The position numbers and the translations under genes are program-made. The notes beneath the pieces are model-generated. The model saw only the letters and a list, made by a program, of their open reading frames with translations, was not told the DNA's origin and did no database searches. Positions 3,578 to 9,537 of a DNA stretch of 29,380 nucleotides are shown here, in pieces; the first letter of the stretch is position 1, and every line of letters begins with the position of its first letter. Source of the stretch: a virus. Where the stretch lies: IMG/VR virus record IMGVR_UViG_3300027976_000147, positions 1 through 29,380 of that record, one strand, 5' to 3'.

Positions 3578-3940
3578 TTAGAGGCTGAACTGTTCGTTTA
3601 AATCTTTGTGAAATTCTAAAAATTCAAGTATTTGTTTGTCTGTAAGACCGACTTGTTCCCCCTCTCCATCTTCACCTATATAAAGAACATCTCCCGCAAG
3701 AAAATCTTCAACAACAAAATTATTCATTTGATAAATTTTTGCACCCCAAAAAGCGGTAGCAAGTTTATTAATTCCTTTGCTAAATTTCCCTTCTTCATTA
3801 ACATACAAAGTTGAGCCTTTAATGAACATAACCCCTTCAATATATCCATCAACAATATGCTGCATCTCTTCTAAACTGAATTTTTTCTTTTTCTCAACGA
3901 CTTCGTATGTATTGTCTTCTTTTATAATTATTCCACGCAT
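3578..3940 (-). CDS. DUF3846 domain protein
   Basis: This 120-residue protein matches the DUF3846 pattern known from many phages: a first strand MRGIIIKEDNTYEVVE, then LEEMQHIVDGYIEGVMF, then an NEEGK block (about residues 65-69), a variable middle, and a closing GDVLYIGEDGEGEQVGLTD. The role of DUF3846 is not established. The ATG at 3940 follows AACAGGAGAAAC. An open frame continues upstream through the leader but lacks a ribosome site. The long hairpin at 3974-4123 forms its 5' leader. Confidence 0.8.
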   Translation of the reverse strand: MRGIIIKEDNTYEVVEKKKKFSLEEMQHIVDGYIEGVMFIKGSTLYVNEEGKFSKGINKLATAFWGAKIYQMNNFVVEDFLAGDVLYIGEDGEGEQVGLTDKQILEFLEFHKDLNEQFSL

Positions 3941-3973
3941 TGTAGTTTCTCCTGTTTGTTTTGTATATAAAAA

Positions 3974-4123
3974 ATAGATAACAAAATAGAGAACTAAGCA
4001 AAAAATATTTACGGAGATCCAATGACCCCTCCACATTTAACACATCTTGACATTACAAGCATGCGCATATTTTTCTTAGACAGAAAGGTTTGCCTTAGCC
4101 TAGTTCTCTATTTTATTATCTAT
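3974..4123 (-). repeat. 26-bp inverted repeat, RNA-level hairpin between tRNA and DUF3846 gene
   Basis: The arms at 3974-3999 and 4098-4123 are complementary over 26 positions. There are only two exceptions (3982/4115 and 3997/4100), and both become G-U pairs in minus-strand RNA, whereas in plus-strand RNA they would be A-C mismatches. The loop is 98 bases. The 5' arm starts two bases after the tRNA 3' end. The 3' arm is followed by TTTTTATATAC and then the leader of the DUF3846 gene. Roles as a processing stem, terminator or translation switch are all possible. Confidence 0.7.
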
Positions 4124-4125
4124 CG

Positions 4126-4199
4126 TGTATCCGTTGGGACTTGAACCCAAAATCTAATTTTTAGAAGAAATTTGCTTTATCCATTTAAGCTACGGATAC
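4126..4199 (-). tRNA. tRNA-Arg (anticodon UCU)
   Basis: A 74-base cloverleaf on the minus strand folds completely. The acceptor stem is GTATCCG/CGGATAC with discriminator A; the D stem is GCTT/AAGC with GG in the loop. The anticodon stem is AATTT/AAATT with loop CTTCTAA (anticodon TCT), and the T stem is TTGGG/CCCAA with loop TTCAAGT. No CCA is encoded. It would read AGA (and AGG by wobble), codons that are frequent in these AT-rich genes. It lies directly downstream of the promoter-like element at 4227-4282. Confidence 0.93.
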
Positions 4200-4226
4200 A
4201 TTTAACCATTACTCAAAGGACGAGAC

Positions 4227-4282
4227 AATGACCCACCCGTCTTTCTTTATCTTAATTCTCAGGCAAGTTGAGTAAATTTATT
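4227..4282 (-). promoter_or_regulatory. Promoter-like repeat element, copy 1 (upstream of tRNA)
   Basis: This 56-base stretch is nearly identical to 9483-9537, differing at only about six positions. On the minus strand both contain TTTACTCAA, then about 16 bases, then TAAGATAAAG, then CGGGTGGGTCATT. Both lie just downstream of a gene stop and upstream of a new transcription unit, here the tRNA. A TTTACT -35 with a TAAGAT -10 would fit a sigma70-type promoter, but a regulator site or conserved 5' leader is also possible. Confidence 0.55.
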
Positions 4283-4296
4283 TAGCCCTATTTCTG

Positions 4297-4824
4297 TTAA
4301 TTGTTTATAGACCAGTTCCTAAGTTTACCCTTCGTATTATCCATAAGATACTTTGCGACACTAAGATTGCAATCTATATCTAATAGACCTTCCACACTAG
4401 TACCACAAACATTTCTTGTTACAGTTTTCCAAGTGCTATTGACTTGAATAAGGCCTCTATCAATTGAGCCATCTTTATTCAAAGTCCAAATGACCTTGCC
4501 ATTCTTATCAAATTTAGCGTTTATTGCTTTTGGATTACACCTACTCTCTCGCCAAGCAATGTATGAAAATACATCTACTGGTAATCCATACTCTTCAAAT
4601 TTATGTTCCCATTGTGGACATCTTTTAGATGAATCCTTTGGGACTCTTTCATCAAATACCTTCACTTCTACTTTATCAATTGTGATACCAGGCTCAATTA
4701 CATTGCTTGATCGCGCAGCAACATATATTCTTTCTTCCTTCTCATAGCCATACGCAACTGTTGCTATTAACGCTACGCACAACATACTTATTGTAATTAC
4801 AATTATTGAAGTTTTTGTCTTCAT
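4297..4824 (-). CDS. Exported lytic transglycosylase-like protein (SLT fold)
   Basis: This 175-residue protein begins with a basic start and a hydrophobic segment (residues about 6-26), typical of a signal peptide or N-terminal anchor. The C-terminal part carries transglycosylase marks: IAWRESRCNP with E93 as the likely catalytic acid, then DRGLIQVN at 122-129, followed by a cysteine-containing end. Such enzymes cut the glycan strands of peptidoglycan, so a role in host envelope degradation or entry is likely. The ATG at 4824 follows AAGGAGGCAATA. Four cysteines in the exported part may form disulfides. Confidence 0.82.
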   Translation of the reverse strand: MKTKTSIIVITISMLCVALIATVAYGYEKEERIYVAARSSNVIEPGITIDKVEVKVFDERVPKDSSKRCPQWEHKFEEYGLPVDVFSYIAWRESRCNPKAINAKFDKNGKVIWTLNKDGSIDRGLIQVNSTWKTVTRNVCGTSVEGLLDIDCNLSVAKYLMDNTKGKLRNWSINN

Positions 4825-4995
4825 TATTGCCTCCTTAGTTTTGGGTTTGCGATAATTTCGCATTAGCATATTCTTTAGTGCATAACAACGGCAATCTACA
4901 ACTCTGCTATGTTATTACATGGTTTTTATCTTATAGTTTTCTCCTTTTTATACATGTTAGTACCATTAACCGTTACGCAATGTAGGCTTAGATGT
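4825..4995. other. Intergenic leader, no gene seen
   Basis: I find no convincing gene in these 171 bases. On the minus strand there is an AAAAAGGAG ribosome-like site at about 4940-4950, but the first ATG after it is followed at once by a stop, so this may be the remnant of a lost small gene. A short hairpin (TGCGA-AATTA-TCGCA) lies about 25 bases upstream of the transglycosylase ribosome site and could be an operator or mRNA structure. Confidence 0.4.
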
Positions 4996-5343
4996 TTATT
5001 CCTTAAGATCCTTCATTAAGTTAAACATTTCCCTAGCCGTTCCTTGATGCATAGATGGAATTAAAGACAGCCTCTGTCTTATTTCTGTATTGTAAGCGAA
5101 GGCGTACTTTTTAAAAGCATCTTTGACATCAATATCACTACCTTCAGCAATCGCACTTAAAAGAATGCCCATATGCAACATACAACCAAATATAACCCCT
5201 GGCATAAATACTGGGTCTGTACTCTGATCTGAATATGAATTAAATAAAGTATCGGCTACCGAAGGTGATTCGTCAACATAAGCAGAGAACATTTGAAACG
5301 CAATATCTGAATATAGTTCATCATTTTCGCTCAATTCCATCAT
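4996..5343 (-). CDS. Hypothetical helical protein
   Basis: This 115-residue, mostly helical acidic protein has a moderately hydrophobic middle (PGVIFGCMLHMGILLSAIAEG, split by polar residues) that is too short and too polar to be sure of membrane insertion. It follows an AAAAGGAG ribosome site and a good promoter at 5390-5418. Its gene lies between a small membrane protein and the transglycosylase, so a link to lysis is imaginable but unsupported by any motif. Confidence 0.65.
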   Translation of the reverse strand: MMELSENDELYSDIAFQMFSAYVDESPSVADTLFNSYSDQSTDPVFMPGVIFGCMLHMGILLSAIAEGSDIDVKDAFKKYAFAYNTEIRQRLSLIPSMHQGTAREMFNLMKDLKE

Positions 5344-5389
5344 TAAAACAACTCCTTTTCTTGGTCCGAGACCTTTTGGGTATTCATCA

Positions 5390-5418
5390 ATTATACACTA
5401 CCATCTTTATAAAATCAA
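5390..5418 (-). promoter_or_regulatory. Sigma70-type promoter for gene at 4996-5343
   Basis: On the minus strand a TTGATT box (5418-5413) is separated by exactly 17 bases from a perfect TATAAT (5395-5390). The -35 box overlaps the stop codon of the upstream 45-aa gene. The predicted start of transcription would leave a leader of about 40 bases containing AAAAGGAG. Confidence 0.7.
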
Positions 5419-5552
5419 ATTATAATGATCGCTAAAAGCCCCAATATCATTACGGGGAATATAACGATTGCTAAAGCCCCCGTAAAGGCGATAAATATCA
5501 TCGCTAAAAAACAGAACCAAATCATCCATAATGCGAATACAAAGCTTGACAT
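5415..5552 (-). CDS. Small membrane protein, 45 aa (holin-like?)
   Basis: ATG at 5552-5550 follows CTGGAGTGGCAAT, giving a GGAG ribosome site at good spacing. The protein starts MSSFVFALWMIWFCFLAMIF and is hydrophobic almost to its end, enough for one long or two short membrane helices with a tight turn around the central threonine-glycine. There are no charged residues at all. Together with the nearby transglycosylase, a holin or other membrane role is possible, but holins usually have charged ends, so this is tentative. Confidence 0.7.
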   Translation of the reverse strand: MSSFVFALWMIWFCFLAMIFIAFTGALAIVIFPVMILGLLAIIII

Positions 5553-9482: not shown

Positions 9483-9537
9483 AATGACCCACCCGCATTT
9501 CTTTATCTTAATTTTAAGGAATTTGAGTAAATTTATT
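9483..9537 (-). promoter_or_regulatory. Promoter-like repeat element, copy 2
   Basis: This 55-base stretch matches 4227-4282 at about 50 positions. It begins inside the stop codon of the upstream gene and ends about 35 bases before the ATG at 9447. The shared parts on the minus strand are AATAAATTTACTCAA, AATTAAGATAAAGAAA and CGGGTGGGTCATT. It probably starts the transcription unit that includes the repeat protein and the GHKL-like gene. Confidence 0.55.

Follow-up and report, generated by a model that had tools for sequence, protein, structure and literature searches.

A conserved structured RNA behind tRNA-Arg in uncultured phages: apparently a new phage RNA family with a putative function

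Introduction

The viral record IMGVR_UViG_3300027976_000147 of IMG/VR, analysed here over its positions 1 to 29,380 (29,380 nt in all, referred to as the window), carries a long inverted repeat between a tRNA-Arg gene and a DUF3846 gene. Does this repeat act as an RNA, to which of its two neighbours does it belong and what might it do? The original prediction, made from the letters of the window, regarded it as a structure that works in the RNA of the minus strand, and offered four roles: guiding tRNA 3' processing, ending transcription, protecting the downstream mRNA and housing a small structured RNA between the arms. The element is called RNA-d below; its helices are numbered P1 to P5.

Architecture of RNA-d in the window

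The two arms of 26 nt each (3974-3999 and 4098-4123) enclose 98 nt, as had been predicted, and they rank first among the inverted repeats of the window. In minus-strand RNA the 26-bp stem contains exactly two G-U pairs, the same two positions that had been described as its only non-Watson-Crick ones; a 27th pair, also G-U, is possible at 4124/3973. The stem lies 1-2 nt from the tRNA, the end of which is placed by ARAGORN (4125-4199) and Rfam (4126-4199) one nucleotide apart, and on the minus strand it runs directly into six Ts (3974-3969); both the contact with the tRNA and the T-run had been foreseen. P1 forms the base, P2 is a short hairpin, P3 is of the GAAAAAUAU/AUAUUUUUU type, and the hairpins P4 and P5 stand above P3. 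The loop of P5 is UUCAU- or GUCAU-like in 10 of the 12 homologues described below and GUUGUA in L036 and L039. The features are as follows:

3974..4123, minus strand: RNA-d, the whole structured element from basal stem to basal stem (fold z -7.7; covariance model R1, 118.8 bits; 11 further distinct homologues)
4125..4199, minus strand: tRNA-Arg, anticodon TCT, directly upstream of RNA-d in the transcript (ARAGORN; Rfam RF00005, 65.5 bits at 4126-4199; the same tRNA-Arg(TCT) at every homologous locus)
4098..4123, minus strand: 5' arm of the basal stem P1, 26 nt (inner 11 bp, 4098-4108, family-wide with 100% of cells paired; outer 15 bp in the long-stem lineage only)
3974..3999, minus strand: 3' arm of P1 (inverted-repeat search; pair counts)
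4078..4095, minus strand: P2 hairpin with the invariant loop motif CCUUUC at 4083-4088 (CCTTTC in 12/12 in alignments A8 and A9; compensatory changes in the flanking pairs)
4067..4075, minus strand: 5' strand of P3, GAAAAATAT (partner 4000-4008; 100% of cells paired; 2 pairs changed on both sides)
4000..4008, minus strand: 3' strand of P3, ATATTTTTT (pair counts)
4040..4066, minus strand: P4 hairpin, variable in length and loop, with a covarying stem (6/10 pairs changed on both sides; 95.8% of cells paired)
4013..4032, minus strand: P5 hairpin with loop GGGUCAUUGGAU (2/3 modelled pairs changed on both sides; alignment A9)
3969..3974, minus strand: run of six Ts after P1, terminator-like (sequence; four or more Ts in a row behind P1 in 12/12 homologues)
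3578..3940, minus strand: DUF3846 gene, downstream (PF12957, 58.3 bits, E 9e-16; AGGAGA ribosome-binding site at about 3947-3954, outside the RNA fold)

The DUF3846 identity given to the downstream gene is thereby upheld, and its start is most likely the ATG at 3940. Folding the minus strand of 3940-4200, the check proposed for the repeat, gives a strong structure of -76.9 kcal/mol, compared with -47.9 +/- 4.4 for shuffled sequences (z -6.5, 0/200). RNA-d alone (150 nt) folds with a z of -7.7, and its plus strand is less stable than its minus strand (-42.5 vs -55.3 kcal/mol). With z values of about -6.5 to -7.7, the inverted repeat is confirmed as real and far beyond chance.

Distribution of the homologues

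We searched IMG/VR phage contigs for homologues using DUF3846 (PF12957) and the upstream transglycosylase (SLT) gene as leads; L015, L016 and L168 were added through DNA pattern searches. Together with the window this gives 12 distinct versions of RNA-d (the others being L004, L005, L008, L015, L016, L031, L033, L036, L039, L040 and L168). All 12 have tRNA-Arg(TCT) upstream and the DUF3846 gene downstream, and each whole record holds a single copy. The covariance model R1 was built on 11 versions; L168, which was found by the conserved-motif pattern and left out of the model, scores 111.7 bits against it (E 2e-23). Bacterial genomes gave no match in a pattern search or in an SLT protein search, and named phages gave no significant match. 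A descriptor scan of all loci for P1 plus the CCUUUC hairpin returned the RNA-d locus and only three chance-like hits. A stretch of the window upstream of the tRNA (about 4226-4282, minus strand), which shares GGGTCATTG, was considered as a second copy and rejected: over 56 nt it repeats, with 89% identity, the stretch 9483-9537 (minus strand), which comprises the leader and start of ORF 9498-8953, and its own ATG is changed.

Concerning the host, the terminase is 40-43% similar to those of Streptomyces phages and the SLT protein resembles that of Actinomycetia phage DSL-LC01; these likenesses suggest that the host of the RNA-d phages is probably actinobacterial. The SLT proteins of L031 and L033 are 90-92% identical to that of L004, yet in RNA-d and DUF3846 they belong with the other, long-stem type, and this mixture suggests a recombination point between the tRNA and RNA-d.

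Conservation of the structure

RNAalifold on a plain MAFFT alignment yields 50 consensus pairs, in 29 of which each side has changed at least once. In a model-fitted alignment, which leans toward structure where the MAFFT alignment is plain, 98.5% of cells are paired and 70 are double-changed, compared with 21.5 in shuffles (0/500); when the partners are slid as a control, pairing falls to 40-51%. The length of P1 depends on the lineage (11 bp in L004, L005, L008, L015 and L016; 26-27 bp in the six others measured). Its inner 11 bp pair in 12/12 versions, so none of these loci, which all keep the tRNA and the DUF3846 gene, has lost the pairing of the arms. At 11 of 27 P1 positions both partners differ between the window and L040, with pairing still complete. 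The compensatory changes expected in the arms of relatives are thus present. P1 contains 4-8 G-C pairs and is therefore A+U-rich.

The 12-member alignment contains 60 G-U cells and 2 A-C cells when read in the minus-strand sense, which identifies the minus (tRNA-sense) strand as the functional one. Together with the compensatory changes, this asymmetry bears out the proposal that the structure acts as RNA of the minus transcript. The letters kept at loops and junctions are CCUUUC, AAAUAUGC and GUNAAA; the letters of the inner core are better conserved than those of P1, and the core has compensatory changes of its own in P2, P3, P4 and P5. The 98 nt between the arms had been described as a loop; this part of the description does not stand, as they are branched and more conserved than the arms, while the option of a small structured RNA housed between them does, P2-P5 being conserved across the 12 distinct sequences. 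RNA-d is almost certainly a conserved, structured and functional RNA.

Three further readings of the core were considered. A conserved small ORF was rejected by eye, since neither the length nor the sequence of the frames that start from the conserved AUAUGC is constant from one homologue to the next. A kissing interaction between the P2 and P5 loops (AACC with GGUU), also judged by eye, fits L005, L031 and L033, not L040 or L008, and was likewise rejected. A systematic scan for further conserved pairing gave only low-complexity U-run/A-run alternatives and a UUUC (P2 loop)/GAAA (P3 strand) pairing, both devoid of two-sided changes.

Association with the tRNA or with DUF3846

Distant SLT relatives separate the two neighbours. 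Behind the same tRNA-Arg, L073 and L082 carry a smaller three-way junction and a T-run; this small element is closed by (A)GAACUAGG/CCUAGUUC and has a CCUUUC hairpin with loop CCCCCUUUC. Its position, P1 letters and CCUUUC hairpin suggest that it is homologous to RNA-d, and its comparison with R1 gave no significant match. Different genes follow the element in both relatives; their DUF3846 is part of an operon, 1.5-2 kb away, and is not preceded by any comparable element. Distant DUF3846 loci also give no match to R1. Because the L073/L082 element stays with the tRNA, and DUF3846 occurs elsewhere unaccompanied by it, RNA-d appears to go with the tRNA and not with DUF3846, which we consider quite likely; this reading depends on the homology of the small elements. 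Protection of the downstream DUF3846 mRNA, one of the predicted roles, is less well supported for the same reason. Guidance of tRNA 3' processing, another of them, does not hold as a general role: in L031, L033, L036 and L168 another hairpin or element lies between the tRNA and RNA-d.

These arrangements bear directly on the possibility that RNA-d is a cis-acting leader of DUF3846, in which the branched core would open or close a P1/U-run terminator in the manner of a riboswitch-like attenuator. RNA-d lies immediately upstream of DUF3846 in 12/12 versions, P1 and the U-run could serve as an attenuator, and the conserved junction and loop letters are what a binding site would show. Such a leader is nonetheless unlikely, given that in the window and the relatives the ribosome-binding site follows P1 and is not part of the fold, that L039 and L040 carry extra sequence between RNA-d and the gene, and that RNA-d always adjoins the tRNA or another hairpin behind it; the separation of the element from DUF3846 in L073 and L082 and the distant DUF3846 loci devoid of RNA-d count against it as well.

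The constant neighbourhood of the tRNA could also mean that the stem guards transcript ends: once RNase P and 3' processing have excised the tRNA, it would shield the downstream mRNA at its new 5' end, and elements in front of the tRNA would protect the upstream 3' end. Stems start at most about 8 nt from the tRNA in 14/14 loci examined, even where the first element is a different one (L031, L033, L168, L036), and several relatives have structured elements upstream of the tRNA too. However, a plain stem would suffice for this purpose, and the invariant letters (CCUUUC, AAAUAUGC and GUNAAA) and the preserved four-helix architecture are left unexplained, so that we regard this role as rather improbable.

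The transcript end

All 12 versions, which are related and not independent, have four or more consecutive Ts within 8 nt downstream of P1; the same holds at about 6% of window positions. L079, a further distant SLT relative, has a plain terminator-like hairpin behind tRNA-Arg. Like intrinsic terminators, RNA-d has a stem that leads directly into a U-run and closes a tRNA-containing unit, and in L079 an ordinary terminator occupies this place. Intrinsic terminators are short, G+C-rich hairpins with a small loop, whereas in RNA-d an A+U-rich stem encloses about 98-115 nt of conserved, branched RNA; a terminator consensus scanner, which covers short loops only, does not call P1. The predicted ending of transcription is plausible, given the T-runs in 12/12 versions and the terminator, or smaller stem and T-run, of the distant relatives; P1 and the U-run are rather likely a terminator or a transcript 3' end.

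That RNA-d is a terminator and nothing else, its inner sequence being passively conserved among close relatives, is a narrower claim. It would account for the T-run in 12/12 versions and for the plain terminator of L079. It would not account for core letters that are kept better than P1, with compensatory changes in P2, P3, P4 and P5, at loci whose DUF3846 proteins are just about 45-49% identical between the window and the relatives, and it is therefore very unlikely. The long arms also resemble the terminal repeats of a MITE-like mobile element, but such an element or a chance repeat has next to no probability and was rejected, RNA-d being present as a single copy per record at a fixed position, with compensating arms and an extreme shuffle z.

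TATATA-like letters (window 3964-3969) are found a few bases after the T-run in most homologues, and also in L073 and L079 before other genes; they may mark a local promoter. That they form a general phage promoter was rejected, since the combination of T-run and TATATA does not recur in the window or in a 106-kb relative.

The CCUUUC loop

The CCUUUC of the P2 loop is invariant (12/12) and exposed, and its reverse complement is GAAAGG. The tail of the usual 16S rRNA ends in the letters CCUUUC (the anti-Shine-Dalgarno sequence). RNA-d thus presents a conserved, exposed loop complementary to a Shine-Dalgarno hexamer. Among hexamers upstream of starts in the related loci, GAAAGG shows the strongest enrichment (23/89, the genes being partly homologous to each other); as a Shine-Dalgarno hexamer it is minor in the window (3/47 starts) and in the 106-kb relative (4/127). 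A search for an mRNA target site that covaries with the loop found none. RNAIII of S. aureus is an example of a small RNA with a C/U-rich loop that pairs with Shine-Dalgarno sequences. RNA-d shares with RNAs of this type an exposed pyrimidine loop complementary to a Shine-Dalgarno hexamer, invariant in its case; the loop is UCCC in the RNAIII type and CCUUUC in RNA-d. Pairing of the RNA-d loop as an anti-Shine-Dalgarno sequence is thus a tentative possibility, a lead and not a result.

Since the core loop and junction letters are conserved, and a plain terminator would have no need of them, we infer a small RNA with a partner. RNA-d would be transcribed from directly 3' of tRNA-Arg(TCT), on the same minus strand; P1 would clamp the multi-branched core of P2, P3, P4 and P5, and its 3' arm would lead into the U-tract. 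P1 and the U-run would form the 3' end of the tRNA-containing transcript, either by intrinsic termination or as a stop for 3' exonucleases, and the product would be a stable RNA of about 150 nt. Once released it might act in trans, the weaker step of the scheme, its CCUUUC loop pairing with GAAAGG-type ribosome-binding sites. As a whole, we give about an even chance to RNA-d being a phage small RNA linked to the tRNA, with a transcript ended by the basal stem and U-run. The bolder idea is speculative and probably wrong in its full extent: that RNA-d is the first of a new class of phage small RNAs, linked to tRNAs and encased by a terminator, which copy the 16S tail (CCUUUC), bind Shine-Dalgarno sequences and steer phage or host translation, as one of a modular RNA set around the tRNA.

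Other structured elements around the tRNA

Several other elements were seen around the tRNA, all studied less deeply than RNA-d. RNA-a is an 89-nt element between the SLT gene and the tRNA (L004, about 4505-4595, z -6.3 in context; equivalents in L015, L016 and L018), closed by TTTGGTATTAGAA/TTCTAATACCAA and followed in L004 by six Ts. RNA-b is an 82-nt three-way junction upstream of the tRNA (L004 4595-4685, L031 5174-5260, L168 4866-4948; z -3.1). Its invariant loop UUUUUGGUCAUU resembles the P5 loop of RNA-d, there is little covariation, and its third hairpin is swapped for a different one in L168. RNA-c lies just upstream of the tRNA (L004, about 4680-4752) and consists of two small hairpins, whose loops GGTTAAA and TTTAACC, compared by eye, are a possible kissing or pseudoknot pair. 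RNA-e is located between the tRNA and RNA-d (L036 5099-5183, L039 5061-5151) and has the hairpin loop CCCCTTTC; a 22-bit match to R1, which is weak, indicates that it may be a diverged paralogue of RNA-d. RNA-f (L040 4548-4610, 63 nt) is found between the SLT gene and the tRNA and is closed by TATACTGGG/CCCAGTATA; L042 has an RNA-f-like element and no tRNA within the stretch examined.

A short recurring module of the ACTCAA...ACATCTCAAAATAACTGGAGTTCA-like type is present after RNA-d in L039 (about 5316-5390) and L040 (about 4862-4915) and before RNA-d in L033 (about 5437-5490), as if modules swapped places. The locus as a whole looks like a modular tRNA/small-RNA cassette. In the 106-kb relative, L166, the region 100001-103033 holds many TGTAATATTACA-like repeats, and its long intergenic stretches fold very stably on the minus strand (z about -8 to -9.5, from 12 shuffles each).

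Relation to known phage RNAs and significance

In an Rfam 15 search of the window and five relatives only the tRNA reaches the gathering threshold, and a permissive Rfam search gave nothing near any family's own threshold. The GOLLD, HEARO and ROOL models have no match in the window or the relatives, and a literature search brought up no paper recognised as describing RNA-d. It therefore looks like a new phage RNA family, with a putative function.

RNA C and RNA D of phage T4 are stable small RNAs of its tRNA cluster. By description they can be likened to RNA-d as phage small RNAs beside a tRNA gene and co-transcribed with it; RNA-d differs in its branched core with the CCUUUC loop and in belonging to unrelated phages. 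GOLLD is an Rfam family that occurs in phages and close to tRNA genes (PMC12286853, PMC6582537). Like RNA-d, it is a conserved, ornate phage RNA tied to tRNA genes and has no assigned function, but it is several times larger and has an Rfam family, whereas RNA-d matches no Rfam model.

Why phages keep structured RNAs beside tRNAs, as in T4 RNA C and D and GOLLD, is a long-open question, and RNA-d is a compact case of it: each phage has a single copy, its invariant loop is clear and a partner sequence can be put to the test. It represents an apparently undescribed, strongly supported RNA family in uncultured phages whose RNA regulation is almost unstudied. If the anti-Shine-Dalgarno reading is true, RNA-d would be a phage RNA that acts on translation initiation.
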